Positions 12,930 to 27,738 of a stretch of DNA of 39,953 nt are shown here, piece by piece. Source of the DNA: a virus. Made by a program: the position numbers and the translations under genes. Location: positions 1 through 39,953 of IMG/VR virus record IMGVR_UViG_3300017990_000030, one strand, 5' to 3'. Numbering within the stretch: the stretch's first letter is position 1; every line of letters begins with the position of its first letter. Below the pieces are notes generated by a model, which was not told the DNA's origin, did not search any database, and saw only the letters and a list, made by a program, of their open reading frames with translations.

Positions 12930-13751
12930 ATGGTTCAAATTAATGATTTTTTGATAGAAAAAAGTATAAAAGTGATAGGAACTACTGCATTTTCTATCTT
13001 CTGTTATATTAAATCTAAATCAAAAGGAAAATTCAAAATGTTTCGGTTAAGAAACTTTACCGAAACCTTAAACGTATCTAAGCCTGTTGTTATAGAATAT
13101 CTAAAAAAGCTTAAAAAAAGTCAATTTATTGATATAAAAATAGTTATAGAAAATGGAAAAAAATCTCTTTACGTAAAAAATAACAAGATAGGTAAAGAAA
13201 CTTTACCATCGTATAATAATATATATATTAAACTATATATAAATAATAAAGATACTAATAACTTATATAAATATTCTAAGTATAAAGATATATATTATAA
13301 TATTATTAAGAGAGCTCTTGATTATCAGAGATATAATAATAAATATTATAGAAGTAGAAAATTTAAGTTTGGAAAAAGAGAAATTATGCATGTAAAAACA
13401 CTTTTGAAGAATGTAGATTCTATTGAAGATTATTTAGACTGGTGGTTGAAGAATAAATCAAATAAAATTTCAGGATTGAATATTGGAATAATAGCTTGCA
13501 TTCCTATTATAGAAGAGTACAAGATAAAAAATAAAAGAAATATATCAAAAAGTAAAGATAGTTCTAAATCAAAAGAAAGACTTTTGAAAATGAAAAAAGA
13601 AATGCTTATTGAATTGTTTAGAAATATTGAAGATGCTAAAAAAAATAAAAGAGAATATAAATTTTCAGATTCAGATAAAGAGTTTATAGATAAATCTATT
13701 GATGAAGGTTTAATAATTTCGCAAAATAAAGATATGAGGTTGAATTTCTAA
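12930..13751 (+). CDS. Replication initiator-like protein with N-terminal winged helix
   Basis: In this 273-residue basic protein, residues ~1-85 look like a winged helix: 'TAFSIFCYIKSKSKGKFKMF', 'NFTETLNVSKPVVIEYLKKL', then a two-strand wing ('FIDIKIVIENGKKSLYVKN'). The middle is very rich in Tyr, Asn and Lys. The C-terminal third is helical with 'VDSIEDYLDWWLKNKS', reminiscent of DnaD-type primosome proteins. The stop overlaps the ATG of a DnaC-like loader, and a DnaB-like helicase follows. Initiator-loader-helicase is a standard phage order, so an origin-binding or primosome role is likely but not shown. Preceded by AAGGGAA. Confidence 0.5.
   Translation: MVQINDFLIEKSIKVIGTTAFSIFCYIKSKSKGKFKMFRLRNFTETLNVSKPVVIEYLKKLKKSQFIDIKIVIENGKKSLYVKNNKIGKETLPSYNNIYIKLYINNKDTNNLYKYSKYKDIYYNIIKRALDYQRYNNKYYRSRKFKFGKREIMHVKTLLKNVDSIEDYLDWWLKNKSNKISGLNIGIIACIPIIEEYKIKNKRNISKSKDSSKSKERLLKMKKEMLIELFRNIEDAKKNKREYKFSDSDKEFIDKSIDEGLIISQNKDMRLNF
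13041..13065 (+). repeat. Inverted repeat inside the initiator-like gene
   Basis: TTTCGGT (13041-13047) and ACCGAAA (13059-13065) form a perfect 7-base inverted repeat around 11 bases. It is more GC-rich than its surroundings and lies within the winged-helix part of the putative initiator gene. Initiator genes often contain their own origin, so it could be an initiator-binding site or RNA hairpin, or chance. Confidence 0.3.
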
Positions 13752-14572
13752 TGGAATACGAATATAACAATAAAGATTTGAGATTTCTATTATGGCTTAA
13801 GAAAAATATTGTAGAGTCTCATAAAAAGTGTAAAGGAGTAGGATACGATTTTATAAATGGAAAAGTAGAATGTTGCGATTGTATGAAAATATTTAATTAT
13901 CTTAAAGAACTTTACAAATCAAATATTCCAGCTGATTATTGGGATCTTGATTTGAAATCTCTTAAGGTAGATATCACATATAAAAAAATAATTGAAGAGT
14001 TCGTATTAAATATAGATAATGCAGTTTTAAATGGTCTAGGATTAATTTTAATGGGAGAACAAAGAGGTATAGGGAAAACTTCGTTAGCATGTGAAGTTGC
14101 AAAATCAGCAGTAATAAAAAGATATTCTGTCTACTATCAAATAGCGCAAAGTATAGTAGACGATAAATTTAGTGAAGATAAAAATATTATTCAAAGAATA
14201 AAAAATTCTGATATGATAATAATTGACGAATTAGATAAAGTCGTTATGAGAGAAAATAGCAATATACCCAAGCAAATAGAAAATCTTTTAAGAGAACTTC
14301 TTCCAAACAAAAAGTCTATTGTTATGGCGACAAATATGTCTGGAGAAGAAGAGCTTGAAGAAAAATTTAAAATTCTATCATTGATAAAAAGATATATAAA
14401 AATAGTTCCAATGACAGGTACAGATTACAGTGATAATTTACAAGAAAAGTGGATGGATAGACTTAAAAGAGACAAATCGAATTATTTTTCAGAAAACATA
14501 TTAAGAAATGCTTCAATTTTTCATGAAAAAACAATTATTGCTAATGAAAAAGAATTCGATCAATTATTTTAG
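13751..14572 (+). CDS. DnaC-like AAA+ helicase loader
   Basis: This 273-residue protein has the ATPase core of DnaC/IstB-type loaders: Walker A 'GEQRGIGKT' at residues 102-110, Walker B 'DMIIIDELDKV' near 155-166, and sensor-1-like 'SIVMATNMS'. The N-terminus holds a cysteine/histidine cluster ('HKKCKGVGYDF', 'VECCDCMKIF') that could bind zinc, which is common in loaders that contact helicase or ssDNA. It would load the DnaB-like helicase encoded just downstream. The first base of its ATG is the last base of the upstream stop (TAATG). Confidence 0.75.
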   Translation: MEYEYNNKDLRFLLWLKKNIVESHKKCKGVGYDFINGKVECCDCMKIFNYLKELYKSNIPADYWDLDLKSLKVDITYKKIIEEFVLNIDNAVLNGLGLILMGEQRGIGKTSLACEVAKSAVIKRYSVYYQIAQSIVDDKFSEDKNIIQRIKNSDMIIIDELDKVVMRENSNIPKQIENLLRELLPNKKSIVMATNMSGEEELEEKFKILSLIKRYIKIVPMTGTDYSDNLQEKWMDRLKRDKSNYFSENILRNASIFHEKTIIANEKEFDQLF

Positions 14573-14583
14573 GAGGCTTGACG

Positions 14584-15963
14584 ATGGACGATGCTTTTGA
14601 AGCTGAAATTGACAATACAATTGAAAAAAAATTTAGGGATTTAAAGTTAGAAATACAAGTAATATCGTATGCATTAAGAAAAGACTATAATATCGTTTTT
14701 TCTTTTACAAAAGAATATTTTACAATAGAGCCTTTCAAAGTAATTTTTGAAATAATAAAAAAAAATAGAATGACTTTTTCTAAAGATATAATTTATAAGT
14801 TTATTAAAAATGTTGTCGATGAGAATAGAAGAGATATTTACAAGACATATATAATAAAAATATATGATGAAGATATATCTCAAGTAAATAGACATTCAGT
14901 CGAAGTTTTAATAAGTAAATTAAAAGAGCTTCAAGAAGCAAGAAATATTATAAATGGAGTGAGAAAAGTAATTACAGATATAGATAAATTTTCAGTAGAA
15001 AAAGCAAAAAGGATATTACATCGAAGTATATATAGTGATTATTCTAAAAATACTAGATATTCAGGAGATTTTTTAGAAGATTTTGAAGAAAGAAAGCAAT
15101 TGATAGTTGATAGAAAAGAAAATCCTAAAATGCTGGTCGGAGTTCCAACAGGAATAAAAGAATTTGATGAGCTATCTGGTGGCATTATGAGAGGAGAATT
15201 CGGAGTTGTTATTGCAGCTACGGGTATGGGAAAGTCTGTTGCGTTAGGTAATTTTGCGACGAATGCTTGGCTTAGAGGATATAATGTTTTAATAGTATCT
15301 TTAGAAATGACAAAGCATCAGATACAATTTAGAATAGATAGTAGAATTTCTAAAATAATGCATACGAAATTTAGAAAAGCTACTTTAGATGAAAAAGATT
15401 TGAAAATATGGGATATAAAAGTAAAGAGACTAAGAGAGAAAAGAAAGAATTTTTTAGAAGTTTTATGTTTATCTAGAGGATGTTGCGCTTTAGAAATAGA
15501 AGAAGAGTCTATGAAATTACAATCTAGAAAAAATGCACAGATAGATCTTATAATTGTCGATTATCTTAATCTTATGAGCTCGAACGAAAGTGGAAGAGAT
15601 AAGAGAGACTGGAAGCAACAAGGAGAAATAGCATGGGATTTGAAAAATTTATCTATGGAATTTAACGGAATTGGGATACCTATATGGACTGCGAATCAAA
15701 TAACAGATGAAGGATCTTCTGCAAAAAAATTAGAAACAAAACATCTTAAATACTCTAGAGTTATTTCAGAAGTTTCACCCGTTATCGTAGCATTACATCA
15801 ATCAATAGATGATTCTCTTCAAGATATAATGAAATTATGGATATTGAAATGTAGAGATTTTGAAAAAATAAAAAGACCTATAATATTGCATCCTAAATTT
15901 AATATAATGATGCTAAATCAAGAGACAATCAATATAGCTAAAAATGAATTTATGAATAAATAA
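14584..15963 (+). CDS. dnaB: DnaB-like replicative DNA helicase
   Basis: This 459-residue protein is a RecA-fold hexameric helicase that unwinds DNA at the fork. The N-terminal ~170 residues are the helical primase/loader-interaction domain. The motor begins near 'GVPTGIKEFDELSGGIMRGE'; Walker A is 'AATGMGKS' (residues 211-218). Then come 'VLIVSLEMTKHQIQFRI', Walker B 'DLIIVDYLNLMS' and 'IPIWTANQITDEG'. I chose ATG 14584 because AGGAGG (14571-14576) lies seven bases before it; a TTG at 14578 in the same frame is too close to that site. Total length is close to the DnaB family. Neighbouring loader and primase genes complete a primosome. Confidence 0.85.
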   Translation: MDDAFEAEIDNTIEKKFRDLKLEIQVISYALRKDYNIVFSFTKEYFTIEPFKVIFEIIKKNRMTFSKDIIYKFIKNVVDENRRDIYKTYIIKIYDEDISQVNRHSVEVLISKLKELQEARNIINGVRKVITDIDKFSVEKAKRILHRSIYSDYSKNTRYSGDFLEDFEERKQLIVDRKENPKMLVGVPTGIKEFDELSGGIMRGEFGVVIAATGMGKSVALGNFATNAWLRGYNVLIVSLEMTKHQIQFRIDSRISKIMHTKFRKATLDEKDLKIWDIKVKRLREKRKNFLEVLCLSRGCCALEIEEESMKLQSRKNAQIDLIIVDYLNLMSSNESGRDKRDWKQQGEIAWDLKNLSMEFNGIGIPIWTANQITDEGSSAKKLETKHLKYSRVISEVSPVIVALHQSIDDSLQDIMKLWILKCRDFEKIKRPIILHPKFNIMMLNQETINIAKNEFMNK

Positions 15964-16019
15964 GCAGTTAACTTTTTGCTTCTTTTCGAGTATTATAACA
16001 ATAAAGGAGAAAAAAAAGT

Positions 16020-16175
16020 ATGGAAAAAATTGAAAATGTTATGAAAACAAAGAATGGAGAGACTGTTGCAATTTATCGCAATGGCAAGATCTATGTAAAA
16101 GCTAGAAAGTTTTTTAAAGTAAGAGAAACTTTAATTAATACTTTTAATTGTAGAAATTTCATACTTTGTAAATAA
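16020..16175 (+). CDS. Small unknown protein upstream of the DUF932-like gene
   Basis: A 51-residue reading frame starts at ATG 16020, with AAAGGAGA ten or so bases upstream. The product is basic: 'MEKIENVMKTKNG', a short beta-like centre 'TVAIYRNGKIYVKARKFF', and a cysteine-containing end 'NCRNFILCK'. The ribosome site and the otherwise empty 240-base interval support it as a gene. No family recognised. Confidence 0.5.
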   Translation: MEKIENVMKTKNGETVAIYRNGKIYVKARKFFKVRETLINTFNCRNFILCK

Positions 16176-16206
16176 TCCTTTTAAATTTTTTATGGAGGTT
16201 AAAATT

Positions 16207-17025
16207 ATGAAAGAGTTAACTGCAAATGAAGTACTAAAGAAAATCAACTTTCCAGTAGAGCTTCAAGATGTGTTTCTTGCTGATGGGAGAAAGATCGACA
16301 ATCATAAAACTGTTATTCGGAAAGATATCAATAAACCTTTAAGCATAGTGACTGACAGATACAATCTTTTAGACAATAAAAGATGTTTTTCAGTTCCGCT
16401 TGAAGTTATTACTTCTTCGAAGAATAACTATCTTATCAATCGTTACAGTCTCAATAAAGAAGGAGAGACAACTGTTGTTGATTGTCTTTCTAAAGATGAT
16501 TACAAAATACCCGGAAATAAGAAAGATGAAGTTTACAAGAAAAGAGTTGTCTTTGTTAATTCTTACAATCGTAGATCATCTTTAAAAATGCTTTTTGGAG
16601 CTTGGAGACTTATATGCGAGAATGGAGCAGGTGTTTTTATGGAAAGCGTCGAGATGTTTAGAATCGTACATGCAGGAAACAGAGAGCCTAAGATCGTTAA
16701 AGATATGATAATGAAAAGCTTACTTAAATATGACGTTGTATTCAAGCAACATCTTGATGTTCTTTCAAATTTATCTAATGAAAGAGTTAACGAAAAAGAA
16801 TTAGTAAGTATTTTTGAGAGAATGAAATTTGGAAAAAGAGTATCTAAAAATATTAGCGATATTCTTTCTACAGACTATTCGCTTACTCTCTTGGGAATTT
16901 ATGGAGCTGTAACTCAGTATTTAAGAAATAGAGAGATATCGGCAGGTATAATATATCCCTCTATATTAGCTGATTCTTTGAAAATTCTAAATGTTCTTGT
17001 AAAATCAAAAAAGATCAGAAGATAA
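16207..17025 (+). CDS. DUF932-like phage/plasmid protein
   Basis: This 272-residue protein resembles the DUF932 family carried by phages and plasmids; its biochemical function is unknown. Matching features are 'SIVTDRYNLLDN' early on and the central 'VFVNSYNRRSSLKMLFGAWR' followed by 'LICENGAGVF', the family's N-S-...-C-x-N-G core. The ATG at 16207 is preceded by GGAGG (16194-16198); an ATG at 16192 would put the ribosome site inside the gene. The gene uses more C/G-ending codons (ATC, GAC, CTT, CGT) than its neighbours, and a perfect terminator follows. It therefore looks like a separately acquired and separately expressed unit inside the replication block. A weak -10-like TGTAAATAAT lies upstream at 16167. 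Confidence 0.6.
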   Translation: MKELTANEVLKKINFPVELQDVFLADGRKIDNHKTVIRKDINKPLSIVTDRYNLLDNKRCFSVPLEVITSSKNNYLINRYSLNKEGETTVVDCLSKDDYKIPGNKKDEVYKKRVVFVNSYNRRSSLKMLFGAWRLICENGAGVFMESVEMFRIVHAGNREPKIVKDMIMKSLLKYDVVFKQHLDVLSNLSNERVNEKELVSIFERMKFGKRVSKNISDILSTDYSLTLLGIYGAVTQYLRNREISAGIIYPSILADSLKILNVLVKSKKIRR

Positions 17026-17034
17026 GTTAAAGGG

Positions 17035-17061
17035 AAGGCGCTTCTCAAAGCGCCTTTTTTT
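17035..17061 (+). terminator. Rho-independent terminator after the DUF932-like gene
   Basis: AAGGCGCTT (17035-17043), loop CTCA, AAGCGCCTT (17048-17056): a perfect 9-base GC-rich stem running straight into seven T (17055-17061). It is the strongest hairpin in the window along with that at 12620. It isolates the upstream gene from the primase group. Confidence 0.9.
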
Positions 17062-17065
17062 GTTT

Positions 17066-17242
17066 ATGAAATTAAAAATAGGAGTAAAATTAGAAATTTT
17101 TTATAGGAAGCAAAAAGAGTTGGGTATATTAATGGGAGTAGGAGTATATAAAGATTTTAAAGTATTAATTAATAAATCGTTTTTGATTGAAATAAATAAA
17201 AAAGATATAATTAAAATGATTGATAAAAATGAATCTATTTAA
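17066..17242 (+). CDS. Short unknown protein
   Basis: This 58-residue basic reading frame starts at ATG 17066, directly after the terminator T-run, with no ribosome site. A later in-frame ATG (17132) is an alternative. The product is beta-rich then basic ('KIGVKLEIFYRKQKELG', 'VYKDFKVLINKSFLIEI'). Its 3' end overlaps the next gene. Coding status is uncertain because the terminator lies immediately upstream and no promoter is evident. Confidence 0.3.
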   Translation: MKLKIGVKLEIFYRKQKELGILMGVGVYKDFKVLINKSFLIEINKKDIIKMIDKNESI

Positions 17243-17498
17243 AAATGTTAAATATGATATAAATATTTATGGTACCATGAATGCAAAGTTTCCAACAAAA
17301 TGGATTGAAAATTTATATAAAAAAGTAAATGGAGATTTAAGAATTCATTTAAAAGATGTTTTAGACGATTCAAGAAGAATATCTATTTTTAAAAAAGATT
17401 TTGTTTATTTAAATAAATTTCAAGTTGATTGGATTATAGAATGTATAAAAGAATACAATAAGACAGGAATTTGGAGAGATTGTTCGAAAAGTTTATAA
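17229..17498 (+). CDS. Unknown small protein upstream of primase
   Basis: This 89-residue protein starts at ATG 17229, inside the end of the preceding frame; an in-frame TTG lies at 17220. The sequence looks like a folded protein: 'FPTKWIENLYKKVNGDLRIH', 'DSRRISIFKKDFVYLNKFQV', then 'DWIIECIKEYNKTGIW'. No motif assigns a function. No clear ribosome site is present, so translation may be coupled to the frame before it. Confidence 0.45.
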   Translation: MNLFKNVKYDINIYGTMNAKFPTKWIENLYKKVNGDLRIHLKDVLDDSRRISIFKKDFVYLNKFQVDWIIECIKEYNKTGIWRDCSKSL

Positions 17499-17547
17499 AA
17501 AAAAAAAAAATTTTTGTTTACTTTAAAATTTAAAAGGTTAGTATATT
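17497..17547 (+). promoter_or_regulatory. A-tract and weak promoter upstream of primase
   Basis: Fourteen consecutive A (17497-17510) run into TTTTTGTTTA (17511-17520) and, further on, TATATT (17542-17547). TTTTTGTTTA matches the upstream block of the recurrent promoter motif, but the distance to the -10-like box is about three bases longer than in the other copies. The A-tract could act as a bent-DNA or UP-type element. The primase gene has only AAAAGG as a distant ribosome site. Confidence 0.35.
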
Positions 17548-17550
17548 ATT

Positions 17551-18543
17551 ATGTATAATGGGAAAGAAAAATATAATGAAATAATTAGCGAAATTGATAT
17601 CGAGAAAGAGCTTGCCGATAGAAATATAAGAGGTAAAATAACTTCTAATAATTTAATGATATTGTGTCCGTTTCATAATGAAAAAAATGCTTCATTTGGA
17701 ATTTCTGTAGATGGTGATAAGAAGGGAGTATATCAGTGTTTTTCGTGTGGTGAATCTGGTAATTTTTTTCATTTAATAAGTTATTTGGATGATATAACTT
17801 TTGAGGAAGCAATAAGTTCTTACGAAAAAGACAGCATTAATGTTGCAGAGATTAAAAAATTGAAAGATTTGTTTGTAAATAAATTAAATAAAACTATGTT
17901 AAAGCAAAAAATGAAAATTATAAATTTAAGATTTTTAGAAAGATTCAAAAAACCTTATGGAAAGTTTTTAGATTATATTATAGAAGAGAGAAAATTAAAT
18001 AAAAAAACAATAGAAAAATTTAATATATTATGTTGCGATACAAATTACGATGATTTAAAATGGAAAAACAGAGTAATAATCCCCTGGTACGACTTGAAAG
18101 GAAGATTAATAACAATAGATGCTAGAAAAATATACGAAAAAGATAAGATATATAAAATAAGAAAAATAAAAAATAGTGATTCAAATAAAGTTCTATTTGG
18201 CTTAAATTTTATAGAAAGAAATTCTACAATCATTATTGTAGAAGGTAGCTTTGATGCAATGTATCTTCAACAGAATAATATTTCAGCAGTTGCTTTGGGG
18301 ACTTCAAGTATAAGTGATTATCAAATAAAATTGCTTTTAAAACATACAAATAATATTGTGTTATCTTTCGACGGAGATATTCCATATTATAGAGAAAGAA
18401 ATATGACAAGTATAAAAAAATATAAAGACATTTTATCAAATTTATTTAATGTTGAGATAGTAAAACTTAAGAATAATAGAGATCCAAACGATTTGTCTTC
18501 AGAAGAAATAGATAAGATTTATTGTAATTTTAAAAGAAATTAA
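17551..18543 (+). CDS. dnaG: DnaG-like DNA primase
   Basis: This 330-residue primase makes RNA primers for lagging-strand synthesis. An N-terminal CHC2 zinc finger has ligands C39, H42, C63 and C66 ('CPFHNE', 'CFSCGESGN'). A Toprim catalytic domain follows, with 'IIIVEGSFDAMYLQ' (E231) and 'LSFDGDIP' (D274, D276). It is shorter than bacterial DnaG (~600 residues) because the helicase-binding C-terminal domain is absent, as in many phage primases. Near its end 'NNRDPNDLSSEEI' matches the conserved D-P-D/N region after Toprim. Together with DnaB-like and DnaC-like genes upstream it completes the priming apparatus. Confidence 0.85.
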   Translation: MYNGKEKYNEIISEIDIEKELADRNIRGKITSNNLMILCPFHNEKNASFGISVDGDKKGVYQCFSCGESGNFFHLISYLDDITFEEAISSYEKDSINVAEIKKLKDLFVNKLNKTMLKQKMKIINLRFLERFKKPYGKFLDYIIEERKLNKKTIEKFNILCCDTNYDDLKWKNRVIIPWYDLKGRLITIDARKIYEKDKIYKIRKIKNSDSNKVLFGLNFIERNSTIIIVEGSFDAMYLQQNNISAVALGTSSISDYQIKLLLKHTNNIVLSFDGDIPYYRERNMTSIKKYKDILSNLFNVEIVKLKNNRDPNDLSSEEIDKIYCNFKRN

Positions 18544-18564
18544 AATATATCAGGAGAAAATGGG

Positions 18565-19113
18565 ATGATTGATTTCGATGATATAATAAATTCAATTAAA
18601 AAAAACGTAGAATATTATAGTTATTATGTTTCGAGGAATTCTAAAATAGAATATCACGACGCAAAACAAGAAATACTTTTAAGGTTATTTATTTCTAAAG
18701 ATAAATATAATGAAAAATTAAGTTGCAAGAAAACATATTTTATAACTGTAGCGAAAAAAGAAGCTATGCATATTTTAAAAAATTCTAGAAATAATAAGAA
18801 TAGTTTTTACAATGATACTATTTCATATAACGAATATACTTTTGATGAAAATAATAATAAAAGAGAAAAATTATATTTTATAAAAGAGACTAGAGAAATT
18901 TACGATTACGTTAATCGTGTAGAATTATCAGATATTTTCGATAGAATAGAGAATTTATTGGATAAAAATGCAAAAAAGATATTCGAATTAATGAGACAAA
19001 ATAATTTTGATTTAGACGATATTGCAAAGTTTTTGAATACAACAAAACAAAATATATGTAATATCGTAAGAAGAAAAATAAGACCCATATTAAAAAAAAT
19101 GTTAATAAAATAA
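18565..19113 (+). CDS. Small sigma-factor-like protein (regions 2 and 4)
   Basis: This 182-residue protein has the build of an ECF-type sigma factor. Residues ~28-72 resemble region 2 ('IEYHDAKQEILLRLFISKDK', 'KTYFITVAKKEAMHILKNS'), which contacts core polymerase and the -10 box. Residues ~128-182 resemble region 4 ('LDKNAKKIFELMRQNNFDLD', then the helix-turn-helix 'IAKFLNTTKQNICNIVRRK'). GGAGA precedes the ATG. It could redirect host RNA polymerase to phage genes; that is inference, and a DNA-binding regulator with similar helices is the alternative. A copy of the recurrent promoter motif follows immediately. Confidence 0.6.
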   Translation: MIDFDDIINSIKKNVEYYSYYVSRNSKIEYHDAKQEILLRLFISKDKYNEKLSCKKTYFITVAKKEAMHILKNSRNNKNSFYNDTISYNEYTFDENNNKREKLYFIKETREIYDYVNRVELSDIFDRIENLLDKNAKKIFELMRQNNFDLDDIAKFLNTTKQNICNIVRRKIRPILKKMLIK

Positions 19114-19129
19114 ATATATTGTATATAAT
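19095..19129 (+). promoter_or_regulatory. Promoter motif copy 2 (nucleotide cassette)
   Basis: TGTTAATAA (19100-19108), 11 bases, TGTATATAAT (19120-19129): the same blocks and spacing as the copy at 12670, with one mismatch in the nine-base upstream core. The motif overlaps the end of the sigma-like gene. The -10 hexamer ends six bases before the dCMP deaminase ATG at 19136, so transcription should begin at or next to the start codon. Confidence 0.7.
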
Positions 19130-19135
19130 TAATAT

Positions 19136-19594
19136 ATGAAAAGAATAAGTTTTGACGAGTTATGGATGACGATAGTGAAAGTTCTTGAAAATAGAAGTAC
19201 TTGTTTGAGAAGAAAAGTGGGAGCTGTGTTAGTTAAAGATAATATTTTATTATCAACGGGGTGGAATGGGGCCCCAAGAGATATGAATCACTGTGAAATT
19301 TGTATACGAAATAGAGATAAAATACAATCGGGAACTAGATTTGAATATTGTCGAGGTGTACATTCAGAACAAAACGCGTTATTGCAGTGTATTTTGAAGC
19401 AAACAAATTGCGAAGGAGCAACATTATATTGCTCAACATCTCCTTGCGTGACGTGCGCAAAACTATTAATTCAAATGAAGATAAATAGCGTAATATTTTT
19501 AGAGATATACGATGACGATCTTGCTTTTGAGATGTTAGATGAAGCGGGGATAAAATATAGAATGTATTTGAGAGAAATTAATCTTTTGAGGTGA
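19136..19594 (+). CDS. dCMP deaminase
   Basis: This 152-residue zinc enzyme converts dCMP to dUMP, the substrate for thymidylate synthesis. Catalytic zinc motifs are 'VHSEQNALLQC' (H76, E78 as proton shuttle) and 'SPCVTCAKLL' (C104, C107). The N-terminus has the family's 'STCLRRKVGAVLVKDN' and 'GWNGAPRDMNHCEIC', whose extra cysteines suggest the second structural zinc found in T4-type enzymes. Length is normal. No ribosome site lies before the ATG, and a promoter -10 box ends six bases upstream, so the mRNA is probably leaderless. It heads the deoxynucleotide cassette. Confidence 0.9.
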   Translation: MKRISFDELWMTIVKVLENRSTCLRRKVGAVLVKDNILLSTGWNGAPRDMNHCEICIRNRDKIQSGTRFEYCRGVHSEQNALLQCILKQTNCEGATLYCSTSPCVTCAKLLIQMKINSVIFLEIYDDDLAFEMLDEAGIKYRMYLREINLLR

Positions 19595-19599
19595 TAGAG

Positions 19600-20193
19600 A
19601 TGATTGAAACATTAATATTAATTTCGGGAGGACTTTTATTGATATGCGTTTTTCTTATATCAATAATAATACTCTTGAAAAAGAAAGAAAATGTATTAGC
19701 TTATGATTATGTAGATCTATTATTAAAACAAGGTAGAAAGAAACAAGATAACAACAATGAAATTAATCCCAACAATGAATGCTCTCATCTATATGAAGAT
19801 ATAGAAATACCAAAAGATTTGTCGAATCCTTTAAAAGAGATATGGGACAAGCAAACTCTTTTTCAAAGTAAATATGCGAACTTTAATGAGGAGATGAGTT
19901 TAAAAAATAGAATAAATTTTATAGATAAGAACTGGAGAAATCTTTGTATAGAGTATGGAGAGCTTATGCAAAGACTTCCTTATAAAGAATGGAAGAGATA
20001 CAAAAATATAGATTTCAATTTGTCAAAAAAATATATGCTTGAAATTTTTTACGAATATGCAGACATGGCTCATTTTTTTGTTACAATAGGAATTTATTTG
20101 GGAATAGATTGGAAGACATTTTATAATTTATATATTACGAAAAATAAAGAAAATTTTAATAGACAAAAAAGAAAAGAATACAAAGGAGAATAG
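19600..20193 (+). CDS. Membrane-anchored dUTPase-like all-alpha NTP pyrophosphatase
   Basis: The 197-residue protein begins with a transmembrane helix (residues ~3-27, 'TLILISGGLLLICVFLISII' followed by I-I-L-L-K-K-K). After a polar linker comes an all-alpha dimeric dUTPase/MazG-like domain. It has the ExxE motif in 'LCIEYGELMQRLPYKEWKRY', the ExxD motif in 'YEYADMAHFFVTIGIYLGI', and the family's closing helix 'LYITKNKENFNRQ'. The reaction would be dUTP to dUMP. ATG 19600 is preceded by GAGGTGAT; an in-frame GTG at 19591 overlaps that site. A membrane anchor on this enzyme is unusual. Confidence 0.6.
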   Translation: MIETLILISGGLLLICVFLISIIILLKKKENVLAYDYVDLLLKQGRKKQDNNNEINPNNECSHLYEDIEIPKDLSNPLKEIWDKQTLFQSKYANFNEEMSLKNRINFIDKNWRNLCIEYGELMQRLPYKEWKRYKNIDFNLSKKYMLEIFYEYADMAHFFVTIGIYLGIDWKTFYNLYITKNKENFNRQKRKEYKGE

Positions 20194-20197
20194 AAAT

Positions 20198-21082
20198 TTG
20201 AACTATATTTTAGGATCTGGAATAACGAGTTTAATTTTAAAAGTATATTTAAAAAATTATAAAATAATCGGTAATAAATTAGGTGGGCAACTTTCAAGTT
20301 GCTTTCAGTTAGGGCCTAGAATATTAAAAAAAACTCAATATACAGAAGATTTTTTTAAAAGAATCAATTATTATCCAGAATTGAAGACATATAAAATAGG
20401 ATATTATTATGCAGATAAAATACATTCTATGTGTGATATTGAAAATCGATGTAGATATTTCACTAAGACTAGAGGTACGTGTTTGCTTTTAAGCGAATCG
20501 TCTATGAATGATGGTTTGAATGTTATGAATGGATATGATTTAGATGACTTGATGTTGATAAAAATAATAGAATCTATAGATAAAAAAGATTTGATTGAAG
20601 AAAATATTATATCGATAGATATTAAGAAATCTAGAATATTTACTTATAATAACATATATAAATATAACAAAATTATAAATACTATTCCTGTTGAAGATTT
20701 AGTATCTTTGTTGAATATATTCTATAGATTAGAAGTGAATTACATATCTGTTATTTTTTTACTTTTAGATAAAAAATATTTTAATATAGATTTAAAAGAT
20801 TTCGATTTTGTTTATTTTACTGATTATAAGTATGCGTTTCATAGAGTAACTAATTTGAATAGATTCTTATGTATAGAAGTAAGGAAAGATAGAATTTCTG
20901 AAATAGATGAAAAAATATTAAAAAAATCTAAAAAGTTTCTTTTTAAAAGAGGGATATTAGTTGACGATAAGAATTATGATAATATAGAAGATATAGAATG
21001 TATTGGAAGATACGCTCAAGTTAGTCACAAAATAAGATCTCATAATGTTATACAAAAAGCGTTGGAGATGTCTAATGAATAA
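20198..21082 (+). CDS. FAD-binding oxidoreductase (UGM / protoporphyrinogen-oxidase-like)
   Basis: This 294-residue protein starts at TTG 20198, with AAAGGAG upstream. The dinucleotide-binding motif 'YILGSGITSLILKVYLK' begins two residues later, so the start must be this early. 'IIGNKLGGQLSS' follows as the second flavin-binding loop. Later stretches fit the amine-oxidase/UDP-galactopyranose-mutase fold: 'KIINTIPVEDLVSLL', 'FVYFTDYKYAFHRVTNLNRF', and the C-terminal FAD contact 'IGRYAQVSHKIRSHNVIQKA'. Substrate unknown. Its place between dUTPase-like and thymidylate-type genes suggests a role in nucleotide metabolism or base modification, or in supplying reduced flavin; this is inference. Confidence 0.6.
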   Translation: MNYILGSGITSLILKVYLKNYKIIGNKLGGQLSSCFQLGPRILKKTQYTEDFFKRINYYPELKTYKIGYYYADKIHSMCDIENRCRYFTKTRGTCLLLSESSMNDGLNVMNGYDLDDLMLIKIIESIDKKDLIEENIISIDIKKSRIFTYNNIYKYNKIINTIPVEDLVSLLNIFYRLEVNYISVIFLLLDKKYFNIDLKDFDFVYFTDYKYAFHRVTNLNRFLCIEVRKDRISEIDEKILKKSKKFLFKRGILVDDKNYDNIEDIECIGRYAQVSHKIRSHNVIQKALEMSNE

Positions 21083-21989
21083 ACTTTGGAAAATTCAAAA
21101 AGAATTCAACGATAAGTTCTTTAAAGATATAAATAAAGATATAAGTTCGTTAACAACAGAAGAAAAAATAAAAGAAACAAAAGAATTTATATTGCATTTA
21201 TCAAGAGAGATATATGAAATATTAGATCTTATTCCTTTTAAGATGCATAGAAGATATAATAAATTTGAAATTTTAAAATCAGAAATAACTGAAAGTTTAA
21301 TTGATGCTCAGAAATTTTTATTGGGTTTGTTTCAAATATGGAATGTAAATTATAAAGAATTTGAAGAAGTTTTTATAAGAAAATCTTTTGTAGTTTCACA
21401 AAGATACGAACAAGAGAAAAAAATTAAAGAAATATTTAATTACGAAAAAATATGTATTTTAGATATAGATGGAGTATTATCTGATTATCCGAAGTGTTTT
21501 ATCAAATATATTAATAATAAAATTCATTCGTATTTTGATTCATTGAGTGAAGTAGAAGAAAAATTAAAATTAGAGACATTGTATTCTTTGAAAGATGATT
21601 ACAGAAAATCAGGATATAAAAGAAATATAAAAGTAAAAGATGGCGCTGTAAGTTTTGTTAATAAGTTAAAAAAAAATGTGTATAATATAATATTATTGAC
21701 AGCAAGACCTTACCATAAATATAGTAGAATATATCACGACACGATTTATTGGTTGAAGAAAAATAAAATAAAATATGATTTTATATTGTGGGATAGAAAA
21801 AAAGATTTAAGCATTTTAAATAATTTCGATTTGAAAAATATAAAGTTTGTTATAGAAGACAATTTGAATAAAGCTAATAAGATATCTAAATTGGGCGTTA
21901 AAGTGTATTTATTTAATAGTTCTCAAGATTTAGGAAAAATATACAAAAATGTAATTTTGATAGATAATTTTGATGAGGTAAAAATATGA
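21075..21989 (+). CDS. Fusion: all-alpha NTP pyrophosphatase-like + HAD phosphatase
   Basis: In this 304-residue protein, residues 1-~118 resemble the dUTPase-like domain of the gene at 19600: 'LHLSREIYEILDLIPFKMHR' (ExxE), then 'ITESLIDAQKFLLGLFQIW' and 'FVVSQRYEQE'. The second acidic motif is imperfect, so activity is uncertain. Residues ~125-304 are a HAD-superfamily hydrolase: 'ILDIDGVLSDYP' (D130, D132), 'ILLTARPYHKY' (motif II) and 'KFVIEDNLNKA' (motif IV). HAD proteins of this sort are often 5'-nucleotidases or polynucleotide phosphatases. ATG 21075 has GGAG nine bases upstream and overlaps the previous gene; an ATG at 21045 lacks a site. Confidence 0.6.
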   Translation: MNKLWKIQKEFNDKFFKDINKDISSLTTEEKIKETKEFILHLSREIYEILDLIPFKMHRRYNKFEILKSEITESLIDAQKFLLGLFQIWNVNYKEFEEVFIRKSFVVSQRYEQEKKIKEIFNYEKICILDIDGVLSDYPKCFIKYINNKIHSYFDSLSEVEEKLKLETLYSLKDDYRKSGYKRNIKVKDGAVSFVNKLKKNVYNIILLTARPYHKYSRIYHDTIYWLKKNKIKYDFILWDRKKDLSILNNFDLKNIKFVIEDNLNKANKISKLGVKVYLFNSSQDLGKIYKNVILIDNFDEVKI

Positions 21990-22465
21990 TAGAGAAAATG
22001 GGGATTGAAAAATATTGTAGATGTTTTTTTAAACATAACGGAGTCGTTATTGTAGACAATAAGAAAACGATTGAAATAGAAGGACATTTAATTAATAATT
22101 TAGATAATAAGGAGTTAAAAAGAAAGTTAAACAGCGTCGAAGCAGAGCCATATTTACATACGTACAGAGAATATAAACAACAAATAGTAGAAGAGCTTAA
22201 ACGAGATATTAATTCAAGAAGAGTTGTATTAAGTTTTTATAATAAAGAGGGGATTTCAGAAAATCTTAATTGTATGATATGCGCTCAATTATTATTTAGA
22301 AATGAAAAATTAAATATTCATGTTTTTTCAAGAAGCTCTGATGTCTATAAATTAAAAGATGATTTAATAACGATGAAATTTATATTGGATGATATCTCAA
22401 AACAAATAAAAGTAGATTCTGGAATAATTTGTTTCTACGCAGGGAGTTTTCATGAGTACGTTTGA
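21986..22465 (+). CDS. Short ThyA-like (thymidylate synthase / hydroxymethylase fold) protein
   Basis: This 159-residue protein aligns by eye with the C-terminal half of ThyA-type thymidylate synthases. 'NCMICAQLLFR' stands for the catalytic P-C-H-x3-Q segment, with the Cys kept. 'KLNIHVFSRSSDVY' stands for the 'KLsc.lyQRSxDv' dUMP-phosphate loop, and 'YAGSFHEYV' for the 'GDxHxY' end. An Arg pair in 'DINSRRVVLSFYNKEG' fits the first phosphate loop. The usual N-terminal domain is missing (ThyA is ~260-300 residues). The Asn that selects dUMP cannot be placed with confidence, so a hydroxymethylase or a non-catalytic role is possible. It overlaps both neighbours. Confidence 0.5.
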   Translation: MIEKMGIEKYCRCFFKHNGVVIVDNKKTIEIEGHLINNLDNKELKRKLNSVEAEPYLHTYREYKQQIVEELKRDINSRRVVLSFYNKEGISENLNCMICAQLLFRNEKLNIHVFSRSSDVYKLKDDLITMKFILDDISKQIKVDSGIICFYAGSFHEYV

Positions 22466-22913
22466 TATAATAATAGTAGAGGGAGCAGACAAAGTTGGGA
22501 AGACTACTTTTAAAAAAGAACTAGAAAGAATAACGAATTATAAGTATATTTTCATAGATAGAATGTATTCTTCTGCAGTCGTGTATGAGAAGCTTAAAAA
22601 AAGAGGGAATGATATAGAAGCGTATCGAGAAGATTTTAAGAGATTATGTGAACACTTTGATGTTCTATTGATATTTCTTTTTCCAAGAGATATTGGAGAT
22701 ATAGAGAGAAAAATAAAAGAATTAGGAGACGATATTGTAGATGTTAATGAAGTTCTTAATCTGTATATATTATATAGGAATGAATTTAGAAGTATAAAAA
22801 TGGATAAAGTAAAAAAAGATCTTCCTATAGCGGGTTTAGTAAGTTATATAGTTGATGTTGATGGTAATACTATTGAATTAGCAAGAAAAGCTAAAGAGGA
22901 TTTCAATTTATGA
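22452..22913 (+). CDS. Thymidylate-kinase-like P-loop nucleotide kinase
   Basis: This 153-residue kinase has the P-loop 'VEGADKVGKTTF' (residues 9-20), which matches the 'EGxDxxGKTT' form of thymidylate kinases, and a 'FIDRMYSSAVVYE' segment like the TMK DR(Y/H)xxS region. 'LLIFLFPRDIGDIERKIKE' fits the strand and lid helix. It is shorter than bacterial Tmk (~200 residues). Expected reaction: dTMP (or a modified dNMP) to the diphosphate. The ATG lies inside the ThyA-like gene and the stop overlaps the polymerase start (ATGA), so three successive genes are translationally linked. Confidence 0.65.
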   Translation: MSTFDIIIVEGADKVGKTTFKKELERITNYKYIFIDRMYSSAVVYEKLKKRGNDIEAYREDFKRLCEHFDVLLIFLFPRDIGDIERKIKELGDDIVDVNEVLNLYILYRNEFRSIKMDKVKKDLPIAGLVSYIVDVDGNTIELARKAKEDFNL

Positions 22914-25900
22914 GTATGTTGAAAAGCGATGTAGTTTCTAAATTTCAAGAGGAAAAGGAAAAAGAATTATCTATAGATGACATTTACGATCTTGTAGAAA
23001 AATGCGAAAAGTGTGAGTTAAAAAAATTAAGTGTTAATCGCGAAGTTGTAAGAAGTAATGGAAGATTAAATGCTCCTATTATGATAATAGCTCAAAATCC
23101 ATCAGAAAGTAGAAAGGGAAATAGATGCTTTGGAGAAGACGATAGTGTTAATAGTAAATATATTCAAGCGATGCTTGAAAAACATAAATTTAATTTAAAT
23201 GATGTATATATAACTAATTTAGTTAAATGCTCTACTAAAAATAATTTGAGGCCGAATGAAAATATAACAAAAATATGTTCTGAGTATATTAAGGAAGAAA
23301 TAAATGTTGTTAATCCAAAATTAATTATATGTGCGGGTAGATTTTCTTCTGACTATTTTGGATTATCTTTTTACGAAATAAAGAGAAGTAAAAATAGAAT
23401 ATTCTTTTCGATATATCATCCCTCGTATATCTCTTATGGAAAGTGCAGTAAAGAAGAATATATAAATCAATTAAATCCAATAAAAGATACGCTTAAGAAA
23501 ATAAGAAATAGAATGTTTGTTCATTTGCATTGCCATGATGAATATTCGATAAGAGATGCTATAGGCAAAATAGAGGATTATGTAGAATTAGCAAAAGAAA
23601 GAAATCTTCCTGCTATTTGTATCACAAATCATGGGAATATTGGCGGGTTTATAAGACAATATTTAGCGTGTAAACAGATGAAAATAAAGCCGATTTTCGG
23701 ATGTGAACTTTATGTTAATAATTATAGAAAAGTTGAAAATAAAAAAGATCTTCCCGTAGAAAAAAGAAAAAATAATCATTTGATCGTATTAGCTAAGAAT
23801 ATAGAAGGGTTTAAGAATATAGTAAAAATTACTTCTGATGCTTGGATAAATGGATTTTACTACAGGCCAAGAACAGATTTCAAATTTTTAGAATCTTGTT
23901 CTAAAGGAATAATTGCGACAAGCGGATGTCTTGCGGGTAAGTTAAATAAATTTTTATTAGAAGATAAATGGGATAAAGCAAGAAATTTTGTAGAAAAATA
24001 TAAACAAATATTTGAAGAATTCTATATAGAATTAATAATGATAGATTTTGATTTAAATATTGAAATAAACGAGAAATTAGTAAAGCTTGCTAAAGAAACT
24101 GATACAAAGCTTATTATAACAGGTGATGTTCATTATTTGAAAAAAGAATATTCTAAAATTCATAATATTATGTTATTGATAAGAGATAATTACACATTAA
24201 AAGATTTAGAAGATGAGAAGAAAAAAGATAAGATATTTCAGTTTGAAGCTAAAGATTTATACTATAAGACTATAGAAGATGTTTACGATCTTTTTAATAA
24301 AAAATATAAATCGAATTTATTTACAAAAGAAGTTTTTATAGAAGCTTTTGATAATGTTTTTGAATTAATAAATAGTATTGAAAATATTGAATTAGATACT
24401 TCTTTGAAACTTCCAAAAATAAGTGAAAATAGCGATCAAATATTAAAAAATAAGTTATTAAATGGATTCAAAAAAAGAGGATTTTCAAAAAATAAAAATA
24501 AAGATTATTTTGAAAGAATGAAACACGAATACGACGTTATAACGAAATCTGGATTTACAGATTATTTTCTTATAATGGAAGATATTGTCAATTGGGCTAA
24601 AAATAATAATATTATTGTCGGGCCAGGAAGAGGATCAGCTGCAGGGTGTTTAATAAGCTATTTATTGAGAATAACAGAAATAGATCCTATTAAATACGGG
24701 TTATTGTTTGAACGATTCTATTCAGAGGGACGGAAAGATATTCCAGATATTGATACTGATTTCGAGCCAAGATACAGAGATGATGTAAAAGAGTACATTA
24801 TAGAAAGATTTGGAGAAAAAAACGTATGTACGATAGGAACGTATGGAATTTTTAAAGCAAGAAGTACTTTATTAGATATTGCAAGGGTATACAGTATTCC
24901 GTTGCATGAGACTTTACATTTAACTAAGAATATAATGACAAGTGAATGTGATACTATGACGTTTAAAGAAATTAAAGAAGAATTTCCTGCTGTTGAAAAG
25001 TATTTTGAAAATTATCCTGAAGTTATTGATATTTGCGAAGTGATTAGAGGTCAAATACGAAATATGTCTAAACACGCAGCGGGTATGATTATTTCAGATA
25101 GAGATTTATCTAACAATATCGCATTGATGAGTAGAGATAAAAAAGTATTTTCAGCTTGGCAAGAAGGTTCTGATTATCATGAACTTTCAGCTTTAGGTTT
25201 TATAAAGTTTGATATCTTGGGATTGAATAATTTGTCAGTAATAAAAGATTGTATAGATATAATAAAAGAGAGACACGATATAGAAATAGATATGTATAAT
25301 ATTCCTATGGATGACAAAAAATCATTAAAGCTTGCTGAAGAAGCTGATACTTATGGGATATTTCAATTTGAAAGTAGAATATCTAGAGATTTATTGAAAA
25401 GAGTAAAGCCAAATTGTTTTATGGATTTATCTCATACATCTTCGTTGTTAAGACCAGGGCCTTTGAGAGCAGGAGTTTCAGATGAATTTGCAAATAGAAA
25501 GAACGATAAAGTGCATTATTCGATACCAAAACAATTAAAAGAAATTCTTGAAGAGACTTATGGTATAATAATCTATCAAGAACAAATAATGTTGATAGCT
25601 CAAAAAATAGGTGGATTTGATTTAAAAGAATCTAATTCTTTTAGAAAAGCATTAGTTAAATATGGTAAAGGAGAGAAAGTTGAATCTGAAAGATATGCAA
25701 AAGTAAGATCATATAAAAATAAATTCATAAAAAATGCTGTGAAGATTTTATCTAAGAATGAAGCATTAGATTTATGGGAGAAAATGGCTAGCTTCGCTGC
25801 TTATGGATTTAACAGATCTCACTCTATAAGTTATGCGATGATAAGTTATATAGAATTTTATTTAAAAGCAAATTATTTTATCGAGTTTGTTACAGCGCTA

Positions 25901-26710
25901 TTGAATAATACTAGTAGAGGAAAAGAGACAAATCAAAAAGATAGAACATTAAAAGTTTATATTAATTATGCAAGAGAAAGAGGAATAAAAGTTATAAATC
26001 CAGACGTGAATAAATCTATGGGAGACTTTTCTATAATAGATAATGATATTATAATTTTTGGATTCAATCACATTAAAAATACTGGTAATATATGCAAAGA
26101 TATAATTGAAGCAAGGCCATATTCTTCTTTAAAAGATTTTTGTAATAAGCTTAAAGGTAGAAAAGTAAATAAAACAAAAGTTGAATCTTTAATATATTCA
26201 GGAGCTTTTGATAATTTTGGAAATAGAAACGAATTGATAAAAGAATATAATACAGAAATAAATGTAAATAAAAAATATGAACATATTGATTTGAATAAAT
26301 TAGATCTTATTCAAAAAGAGACTGATATGATGAATATTTGTTTATCAGATAGTATATTCCCAGATAATATTAAGAAAATTATAGATAATTCTAAGAACTT
26401 TTTTATTCCAAGCTATTTTAATAAAAAAGGATTAGAAGAAGGAAGTGTTGCGGGTATGTTAAACAAAATAGTTACATCAAGAATAAAATCTGGAAAGAGA
26501 ATTGGTGAAAAATATTATAGGCTTGTAATATCAGACGATACAGATTCTATAAGAATAAATGTATTTAATAATAGTGATGTTTTATATGTTAGTAAATATT
26601 TAAAAGAAAGTATGTTTGTAGCAATTTCTAGCATTTCTTTACACGTTCAGTCGGGAAGCTATAATATAAGTGATAGTTTGAATAGTTGCTTGAAAGTTTT
26701 GGAAATTTAA
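22910..26710 (+). CDS. dnaE: Uracil-DNA-glycosylase-like domain fused to DNA polymerase III alpha
   Basis: This 1266-residue replicative polymerase has an N-terminal family-4 UDG domain (residues ~25-195): Fe-S cysteines in 'CEKCELK', 'NLVKCSTKN' and 'ITKICSEYI', and 'YHPSYIS' as the HPS motif. The catalytic GEAPG motif reads 'AQNPSE', so glycosylase activity is doubtful. The DnaE part starts near 202 with an apparently intact PHP domain ('FVHLHCHDEYS', 'TNHGNIGG', 'GDVHYL'). Polymerase motifs are 'PGRGSAAG' (~572), 'PDIDTDF' with D613 and D615, and 'KFDILGL' with D768. The thumb/fingers region 'IIYQEQIML' and 'NRSHSISYAMISYIEF' are present. An OB fold ends the protein. Confidence 0.9.
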   Translation: MSMLKSDVVSKFQEEKEKELSIDDIYDLVEKCEKCELKKLSVNREVVRSNGRLNAPIMIIAQNPSESRKGNRCFGEDDSVNSKYIQAMLEKHKFNLNDVYITNLVKCSTKNNLRPNENITKICSEYIKEEINVVNPKLIICAGRFSSDYFGLSFYEIKRSKNRIFFSIYHPSYISYGKCSKEEYINQLNPIKDTLKKIRNRMFVHLHCHDEYSIRDAIGKIEDYVELAKERNLPAICITNHGNIGGFIRQYLACKQMKIKPIFGCELYVNNYRKVENKKDLPVEKRKNNHLIVLAKNIEGFKNIVKITSDAWINGFYYRPRTDFKFLESCSKGIIATSGCLAGKLNKFLLEDKWDKARNFVEKYKQIFEEFYIELIMIDFDLNIEINEKLVKLAKETDTKLIITGDVHYLKKEYSKIHNIMLLIRDNYTLKDLEDEKKKDKIFQFEAKDLYYKTIEDVYDLFNKKYKSNLFTKEVFIEAFDNVFELINSIENIELDTSLKLPKISENSDQILKNKLLNGFKKRGFSKNKNKDYFERMKHEYDVITKSGFTDYFLIMEDIVNWAKNNNIIVGPGRGSAAGCLISYLLRITEIDPIKYGLLFERFYSEGRKDIPDIDTDFEPRYRDDVKEYIIERFGEKNVCTIGTYGIFKARSTLLDIARVYSIPLHETLHLTKNIMTSECDTMTFKEIKEEFPAVEKYFENYPEVIDICEVIRGQIRNMSKHAAGMIISDRDLSNNIALMSRDKKVFSAWQEGSDYHELSALGFIKFDILGLNNLSVIKDCIDIIKERHDIEIDMYNIPMDDKKSLKLAEEADTYGIFQFESRISRDLLKRVKPNCFMDLSHTSSLLRPGPLRAGVSDEFANRKNDKVHYSIPKQLKEILEETYGIIIYQEQIMLIAQKIGGFDLKESNSFRKALVKYGKGEKVESERYAKVRSYKNKFIKNAVKILSKNEALDLWEKMASFAAYGFNRSHSISYAMISYIEFYLKANYFIEFVTALLNNTSRGKETNQKDRTLKVYINYARERGIKVINPDVNKSMGDFSIIDNDIIIFGFNHIKNTGNICKDIIEARPYSSLKDFCNKLKGRKVNKTKVESLIYSGAFDNFGNRNELIKEYNTEINVNKKYEHIDLNKLDLIQKETDMMNICLSDSIFPDNIKKIIDNSKNFFIPSYFNKKGLEEGSVAGMLNKIVTSRIKSGKRIGEKYYRLVISDDTDSIRINVFNNSDVLYVSKYLKESMFVAISSISLHVQSGSYNISDSLNSCLKVLEI

Positions 26711-26769: not shown

Positions 26770-27738
26770 ATGGAAAATGAAAAAATCAATAATTTAAGAA
26801 GAATAATGGGTACTCTACCCGAAGAAGAATCTAAATTTGAAACCCCTTTTTATATGGGAGTAAAAGACATAGAAGTAAAAATGATAGATTGGCCTTCTAA
26901 TATATATAAGCCTCTTGTGACTCTTGCAACTAGTTGTTGGGGAAATAAGATAGATAAATGGGAAGATTTAGGGATAAAAGGAAGATTTTTTGTTGTAAAA
27001 GCTGTTCTTGAGAGAGTAGCATTACCTTTAGCTTATGAAAGCGTTTCTTTTACTTTTGCTGTAGAGAATGTAAGTAGATGGTGTTTTGATCAAATAGCAA
27101 GAGCAAGAATAGGAGCTGTTTTCAGTTCTATGGGAACTCGAGATAATTATCATGCGAATATGGGATTTAGGATTGCAGATGAAATATATCAAGATAAAAA
27201 TCTTTTAAATGATTACATGAAGCTCGCTATTAAATGTAAGAAAATGTATAAAAGGATAGTTGAGAAAGGAAAAGGAAGTTGGCAAACTGCAAGAGATATA
27301 ATACCGATAAGTAATATTCACAGATTTAGTATGTCTATGAATCTTGCAGCTCTTATGAATTTTTGTTCTAATAGAATGAAATTTTGCGAAGCTAGTCAAA
27401 CTGTTGCTGTTGCTTGGTTGATAAGAGAAGAAATGAAAAAGAAATTTCCATTAATCGCTCATTATTTGAGACCGGGATGTGATTTTTCAAAAAAATGTCA
27501 GTATCATAAGAAATATAGTCTTTCTGAAGCGTTTGGATGTTTATTTAAAGAATGCGGAAGAAATGAGTGCGAAGCATCTGATAAATATTCTACATTTAAT
27601 AATTCGTGTTCAGATAAAAAAACAATAGAGAAGCAGTTAAATGTAAAGATTCCAGATAGCAATTATTGGGATACTATAAACGTAAACGATTTTGTGAAAA
27701 AGGGAACTATTGATAGAAAATATTTTGAAGAAGATTGA
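26770..27738 (+). CDS. ThyX-like flavin-dependent thymidylate synthase, divergent
   Basis: This 322-residue protein follows the ThyX plan: 'VLERVALPLAYESVSFTFAV', 'ENVSRWCFDQIARARIG', 'WQTARDIIPISNIHRFSMSM' and 'ALMNFCSNRMKFCEASQ'. ThyX methylates dUMP using folate and FAD. The hallmark R-H-R-x7-S is altered here: the segment reads 'RARIGAVFSSMGTRD', with His replaced by Ala and the Ser position by Met, though neighbouring serines exist. The C-terminal quarter is cysteine-rich ('PGCDFSKKCQYHKKY', 'CLFKECGRNEC'), suggesting a metal site absent from ordinary ThyX. The gene has its own promoter. It could be an active phage-type ThyX or a related flavoenzyme acting on another nucleotide. Confidence 0.6.
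   Translation: MENEKINNLRRIMGTLPEEESKFETPFYMGVKDIEVKMIDWPSNIYKPLVTLATSCWGNKIDKWEDLGIKGRFFVVKAVLERVALPLAYESVSFTFAVENVSRWCFDQIARARIGAVFSSMGTRDNYHANMGFRIADEIYQDKNLLNDYMKLAIKCKKMYKRIVEKGKGSWQTARDIIPISNIHRFSMSMNLAALMNFCSNRMKFCEASQTVAVAWLIREEMKKKFPLIAHYLRPGCDFSKKCQYHKKYSLSEAFGCLFKECGRNECEASDKYSTFNNSCSDKKTIEKQLNVKIPDSNYWDTINVNDFVKKGTIDRKYFEED

Follow-up and report, generated by a model that had tools for sequence, protein, structure and literature searches.

Whether a compact phage cassette of pyrimidine-nucleotide genes supplies ordinary dTTP or prepares an altered DNA base is the question raised by IMG/VR virus record IMGVR_UViG_3300017990_000030, a 39,953-base fragment (~40 kb) analysed over its whole length (hereafter the window), which also encodes baseplate, tail, lysis, and replication genes. 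The initial annotation had described six overlapping or adjacent genes at 19136-22913 plus a ThyX-like gene at 26770, and had weighed an SPO1-like thymine modification against an elaborate dTTP supply. All six genes were present on one strand as described, and base modification was favoured as better supported than plain dTTP supply, because the ThyX homologue (hereafter divergent ThyX) belonged to a clade with altered active-site residues that coexisted with canonical ThyX in six contigs. Ahead of replication, the cassette probably produces a non-standard pyrimidine deoxynucleotide and contributes to excluding the ordinary one from phage DNA; the SPO1-like proposal thus kept its base modification but lost its use of the ThyA-like protein as dUMP hydroxymethylase. 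Enzyme families, residue changes in divergent ThyX and the short ThyA-like protein, recurrence beside unrelated polymerases, and canonical ThyX in 6 of 11 large contigs were read directly from sequence. The features concerned were as follows:

19136-19594, + strand: dCMP deaminase with HxE and PCxxC zinc motifs
19591-20193, + strand: dUTPase_2 (all-alpha NTP pyrophosphatase) with N-terminal hydrophobic stretch (PF08761, phrog_173)
20198-21082, + strand: small flavin adenine dinucleotide (FAD) protein, UDP-galactopyranose-mutase-like (16-sequence profile)
21045-21989 (likelier start ATG 21075), + strand: fusion of dUTPase_2-like NTP pyrophosphatase and HAD phosphatase (phrog_415, NT5C)
21986-22465, + strand: short ThyA-like protein (PF00303)
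22452-22913, + strand: thymidylate-kinase-like (TMK-like) P-loop dNMP kinase (weak PF02223)
22910-26710, + strand: DnaE-type replicative polymerase with N-terminal family-4-like uracil-DNA glycosylase (UDG) domain (PF03167, PF07733)
26770-27738, + strand: divergent ThyX, a homologue of flavin-dependent thymidylate synthase (PF02511)

Divergent ThyX and its clade

Divergent ThyX matched PF02511 with E=3e-19 and 69.8 bits against a cut-off of 24.8, showing Thy1 domain homology. Its signature at residues 106-126 read FDQIARARIGAVFSSMGTRDN, and in alignment the motif RHRxxSx[NQ]ExSxR of ordinary phage ThyX was replaced by RARIGAVFSSMGTRDN, while the upstream GHxxxxEH of canonical ThyX read ALPLAYES, with the upstream His changed to Leu. 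In Thermotoga numbering, which serves as a lead and not as a test, these changes would be His53 to Leu, His79 to Ala, Ser88 to Gly, and Tyr91 to Asp.

The family was retrieved from viral and genome collections by DNA-pattern scans of the ThyX signature plus alignment-based scans (pattern match L025 was discarded as a chance match), and its members were found in contigs up to 195 kb. The 18 full sequences, representing 15 groups at 70% identity, fell in one group in a FastTree tree, with a stem of 1.4 substitutions per site from canonical ThyX and a local support of 0.67 at the rooted node. The clade displayed the signature FDQIARAR[ILV]GxVFxxxGx[RK]DN instead of RHRxxSx[NQ]ExSxR; the changed motifs were seen in 18/18 members with small variation at a few positions (e.g., QIVRAR and QLARTR). 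Seven representatives shared 44 invariant columns, including E90, R103, FDQIARAR, G115, V117-F118, G122, D125-N126, R175, R202, and E207, and dN/dS was ~0.08 in one pair. The divergent ThyX gene of L061 (10001-11446) held a 157-residue insert exactly at conserved C206/E207, with intein-like ends (Cys start and His-Asn end).

A second PF02511 gene was found in six of the 11 large contigs carrying divergent ThyX, scoring 97-163 bits versus 44-74 for divergent ThyX, and all six second copies were canonical (RHR[IVLM]A[AS][YF][TA]QES[QT]R). A phage with a proper ThyX needs no divergent ThyX for dTMP; divergent ThyX is probably not the thymidylate synthase of those six phages, and this coexistence is the strongest evidence for a different product. 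The ThyX-like gene, earlier read as a second, redundant thymidylate synthase, would instead encode the central anomalous enzyme.

Companion proteins and the recurring module

The short ThyA-like protein matched PF00303 (E=1e-7); its closest solved relative was T4 dCMP hydroxymethylase, which was also matched by the family profile (E=2e-15). The window protein contained R78, Cys96, R116-S117, Asp126, and S154-x-H156, with Cys96 aligned to T4 Cys148 and Asp126 to T4 Asp179; these equivalents of the T4-type catalytic residues were invariant in the family, and Cys, Arg-Ser, Asp, and Ser-x-His were kept in 11/11 short proteins (~139-218 aa). The Asp126 position (177 in E. coli thymidylate synthase) is occupied by Asn in both E. 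coli ThyA and SPO1 gp29, and this Asn of SPO1-type dUMP hydroxymethylase was seen in none of the 11, all of which had Asp. The change Asn177 to Asp is reported to shift preference from dUMP to dCMP, and Asp is associated with modified contigs (PMC8670742). In the alignments, neither the window protein nor the other short family members had a counterpart of the segment that contains Glu60, the Tyr of YGxxW, and the folate site, so that both this loss, relative to aligned known hydroxymethylases, and the Asp spoke against the initial assignment as an SPO1-type dUMP hydroxymethylase. A decayed gene fragment was ruled out, since short relatives recurred with the same residues and dN/dS was low (~0.12 in one pair, synonymous sites near saturation). 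Judged from these residues, the protein is more like hydroxymethylases than thymidylate synthases, and it probably binds a cytosine nucleotide covalently but without folate in the usual way.

The FAD protein as a single sequence had no match in Pfam, NCBIfam, PDB, or phage tblastn and no significant PHROG match. A profile of 16 sequences (the window copy plus 15 relatives) matched UDP-galactopyranose mutase (E=9e-8), and the match to 3uka aligned the FAD motif, the NTIP segment, and the GRxGxW motif. The family motifs were a GxGxxxL start, N-T-I-P, and C-terminal GR[YFL][AG]xW, read in the window copy as GSGITSL, NTIP, and GRYAQV. The family and the mutase thus shared the FAD Rossmann start, the NTIP segment, and the GR[FY]GxW motif but differed in size (mostly ~250-330 aa versus ~480-520 for the matched mutase chains); by these motifs the FAD protein can be placed as a much smaller relative of this mutase. 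AlphaFold models made without alignments were too poor to use (mean pLDDT 32 for the FAD protein and 40 for the ThyA-like protein).

The remaining family assignments of the initial annotation also held, the TMK-like and FAD proteins being weak as single sequences. The dCMP deaminase matched PF00383 (E=6e-21) and phrog_174 (E=1e-44), and the GTG start of the following dUTPase_2 gene (PF08761, E=1e-6; phrog_173, E=6e-13) overlapped its stop. All six open reading frames (ORFs) lay on the + strand, neighbours overlapping by a few bases or lying 4 bases apart. The N-terminus of the dUTPase_2-like protein (window 19591-19720) was strongly hydrophobic, which suggests a membrane anchor. The fusion protein was composed of a dUTPase_2-like N-terminal part and a HAD part (phrog_415, E=9e-14; NT5C, E=6e-4) carrying DIDGVL, and it shared 38% identity with the same fusion in L027. 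The TMK-like protein alone gave a weak PF02223 match (0.02), but its family recurred across loci and also adjoined hydroxymethylases in Planchet, Agathobaculum, and Manatee phages. A second TMK-like protein was present in L046 (12242-13141); its C-terminal half appeared by eye UDG-fold-like and was undetected by Pfam.

The DnaE polymerase (PF07733, E=5e-74) carried at residues ~23-200 (window 22910-23500) a UDG domain (PF03167, E=5e-17; UDG_fam4, 79 bits) that had been missing from the initial annotation. This domain contained CxxC and HPS motifs (CEKC and HPSY), and its motif A was AQNPS versus GEAPG of family-4 UDG; a motif A of the form [AG]xNP[SA] was found in the UDG-like domains of 10 loci, and its Asn in the window is TDG/SMUG glycosylase-like. 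In the window and L061 the UDG-like domain formed part of the DnaE chain; in L027 (2897-5296) it was fused to the C-terminus of PolA, and in L035 and others it was free-standing.

Profiles were built and scanned over 10 kb either side of divergent ThyX where available (some flanks were short), giving 19 loci that were not all independent (L053, L054, L056, L057, L059, and L064 formed one related group, and L051, L052, and L058 another). The module comprised the following: (i) TMK-like kinase in 18/19 loci; (ii) FAD-like protein in 17/19; (iii) dUTPase_2-like NTP pyrophosphatase, usually HAD-fused, likewise in 17/19 when a TMK fusion and a single short copy are included; (iv) short ThyA-like protein and (v) UDG-like domain, each in 10/19; (vi) SDR in 7/19; and (vii) dCMP deaminase in 4/19. 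It lay beside PolB, PolA, or DnaE. As controls, 26 phage loci (322 kb) were scanned, among them loci of phages with canonical ThyX and parts of the T4, SPO1, and SP-15 genomes. Neither the FAD nor the SDR profile had a match in them, and canonical ThyX loci were therefore ruled out as carriers of the same module; the relatives picked up there by the kinase and HAD profiles lay mostly next to ThyA-type hydroxymethylases.

The cassette is not a chance arrangement, because the same genes recurred around divergent ThyX in these 19 loci from different phages. A second IMG/VR contig (L002) spanned window 13464-24239 with one mismatch per 10,776 bases, and the cassette reading frames are therefore not an assembly accident. 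Close-relative scans with the window ThyX-like, ThyA-like, FAD, and polymerase proteins returned only this near-identical contig and no other phage. A PADLOC search of six proteins gave no match, and a defence-system reading of the cassette was rejected on that ground.

Several side observations were made on these contigs. A DUF3440 PAPS-reductase-like gene (L048, 3059-4291) was located inside the module between SDR and PolB, together with a ParB-like gene, making sulphur chemistry possible there. Nucleoside 2-deoxyribosyltransferase-like or similar genes were present in L034 (~2173-2648), L035 (3276-3737), and L024 (170-553), adjoining divergent ThyX in L034 and one gene away in L035; from their family, they might destroy unwanted nucleotides. 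In the window, an Rfam search returned nothing, and four sizeable ORFs (6838-8160, 11072-11908, 12930-13751, and 28717-29592) had no PHROG match.

Proposed pathway and rival explanations

The favoured base-modification pathway is built, from divergent ThyX onward, on family, residues, and context at every step. The dCMP deaminase and NTP pyrophosphatases would route dCTP/dUTP to dUMP; divergent ThyX with the mutase-like flavoprotein would attach a group other than methyl to C5 of the pyrimidine, assisted by SDR reductases in other members; and the TMK-like kinase would lift the modified dNMP to the diphosphate. For the short ThyA-like protein, an accessory role on a cytosine nucleotide is proposed in those members that have it, because the Cys nucleophile and dCMP-type Asp are kept and the folate site is gone. 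The HAD/NTP-pyrophosphatase fusion would destroy competing nucleotides, and the polymerase-linked glycosylase domain would remove the unmodified base.

A more specific version, which we hold tentatively and consider improbable as it stands, is a new C5-alkylation chemistry: flavin N5 would carry a sugar carbon, as it does in UDP-galactopyranose mutase, and the ThyX fold would move this carbon to C5 of the pyrimidine nucleotide in place of the folate methylene. SDR reductases would trim the group, so that phage DNA would contain a thymine or cytosine analogue derived from a sugar.

Several points weigh against base modification by divergent ThyX: ordinary synthases may tolerate some of the changes seen in the ThyX active site; the window covers 40 kb of the phage, and a canonical thymidylate synthase may lie elsewhere in it; the surroundings of the cassette contained neither a glycosyltransferase nor another known post-replicative modifier; and phage SP-15, compared below, has a divergent Thy1 protein (gp130) with other changes and no RARIG signature, and no FAD-like gene in the 45 kb of it examined. 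The Asp of the short ThyA-like protein points to cytosine and the ThyX homologue to uracil, and the target is therefore ambiguous; the altered base may be an analogue of either thymine or cytosine.

An elaborate dTTP supply, with divergent ThyX as an unusual working thymidylate synthase, the ThyA-like protein as a relic or regulator, and the UDG removing only misincorporated uracil, is unlikely. All parts do belong to nucleotide-metabolism families, AT-rich phages need dTTP, and divergent ThyX was the sole PF02511 match in 5/11 contigs and in G005-G007, with no full-length ThyA found in the virus records where it was the sole match, most of which are fragments. This reading is nevertheless countered by canonical ThyX in six contigs, by divergent ThyX residues that are consistently different and not decayed, by catalytic residues of the ThyA-like protein kept under purifying selection, and by the mutase-like flavoprotein and SDR, neither of which has a known role in dTTP synthesis.

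Two readings invoke known modifications, and both seem improbable. In T4-type 5-hydroxymethylcytosine synthesis, for which we see little chance, the ThyA-like protein would be a compact dCMP hydroxymethylase, and the rest would supply and clean the dNTP pool: Asp126 at the T4 D179 position, catalytic Cys96, and GSxHxY agree with this, as do its best matches (T4 dCMP hydroxymethylase and T4-like genes beside glucosyltransferases), and dCMP deaminase, dUTPase, and dNMP kinase fit the T4 set. The loss of T4 Glu60, the YGxxW Tyr, and the folate-pocket segment argues the other way, and the ThyA-like protein was not found in 9/19 loci (some flanks being short), whereas divergent ThyX, FAD protein, and TMK-like kinase were near-universal. 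Slightly less probable again is SPO1-type hydroxymethyluracil replacement with divergent ThyX, not the ThyA-like protein, as dUMP hydroxymethylase. With ThyX residues lost, the reaction could be terminated by water and not by hydride, and such a role was proposed for SP-15 gp130 (PMC5977210); a putative dCMP deaminase and a DNA polymerase with a UDG-like domain are likewise present in SPO1; but the mutase-like FAD protein, SDR, and ThyA-like protein, the last with Asp rather than the Asn of SPO1 gp29, would be left unexplained.

Comparison with cultured phages and known base-modification systems

The module appears undescribed as judged from the open-access literature, where no ThyX-based base modification was found, although a description may exist elsewhere; the ThyX family is not known to yield any product but dTMP. 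If base modification by divergent ThyX is true, a widespread phage group would make a DNA base via a neofunctionalised flavin-dependent thymidylate synthase.

Looser versions of the module (FAD-like, HAD, and altered ThyX) are, by gene content, present in about 100 cultured actinophages. Relatives of the L046 FAD protein were found in 120 cultured-phage records, mostly Gordonia, Microbacterium, Mycobacterium, and Streptomyces phages, and 107 records held a DumpTruck-type ThyX match over 80% or more of the query, their distribution among genera being near that of the FAD matches. Gordonia phage Gibbin and Microbacterium phage PhunaPhoke also count among the cultured relatives. As in the window, Streptomyces phage Wentworth and Gordonia phage DumpTruck had the FAD-like oxidoreductase gene adjoining that of the HAD phosphatase, near DnaE and an altered ThyX (RHR changed to RSR or RQR); this ThyX was closer to the canonical motif (QQSQR and QESTR), without the clade signature, and the TMK-like, short ThyA-like, and UDG profiles had no match in the 23-26 kb examined of these two phages. 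Aeromonas phage Gekk3-15 and Luteibacter phage Pluto had consecutive FAD-like, ThyX, polynucleotide kinase, and SDR genes. L073, L074, and about 100 GenBank actinophage records annotate 'oxidoreductase' and 'ThyX-like thymidylate synthase'; those genes are probably parts of a related module, and the latter annotation may be wrong in function. These phages would become candidates for altered DNA, and the gene set could mark phages with it; altered bases can prevent restriction enzymes from cutting and interfere with sequencing.

The operon of Enterococcus phage Planchet (OX422066) resembled the module in its related TMK-like kinase, dUTPase, HAD ('polynucleotide kinase'), and ThyA-family enzyme with Asp, but that enzyme was a full-length hydroxymethylase and was accompanied by glycosyltransferases; neither divergent ThyX nor an FAD-like gene was found in the 12 kb examined. 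T4 gp42 shared the Cys148, Asp179, Arg-Ser, and GSxH positions with the short ThyA-like protein and has dCMP deaminase and dNMP kinase companions as in the window; the window protein differed in lacking the Glu60/folate segment and in having no glucosyltransferase near the cassette. SPO1 (hydroxymethyluracil) resembled the window in having a putative dCMP deaminase, a nucleotide hydrolase, and a UDG-like domain (motif QENPF) at the N-terminus of its replicative polymerase; its dUMP hydroxymethylase is of ThyA type, full-length, and has Asn, whereas the window ThyA-like protein is short with Asp, its polymerase is DnaE, and the central enzyme would be divergent ThyX.

By analogy, the nearest chemical precedent is phage SP-15 (KT624200), in which, according to PMC5977210, over half of thymine is replaced by 5-(4',5'-dihydroxypentyl)uracil made as a nucleotide before replication, with labelled ribose entering the dihydroxypentyl side chain. 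SP-15 has two Thy1 proteins, one of which (gp130) has no RHR motif and is altered in its own way; it was rejected as a member of the divergent ThyX clade, the signature being missing. The SP-15 UDG was canonical (GEAPG), unlike the window AQNPS, and no short ThyA-like gene was found in the same 45 kb. In likeness to the module, gp130 adjoins an SDR (gp129) and is near a deoxyribosyltransferase (gp127), UDG, and HAD. If base modification by divergent ThyX is true, the module would provide candidates for the enzymes that make SP-15 dihydroxypentyluracil, whose synthesis has been a question for decades. The C5-alkylation chemistry, if true, would also explain the ribose label in the SP-15 side chain.

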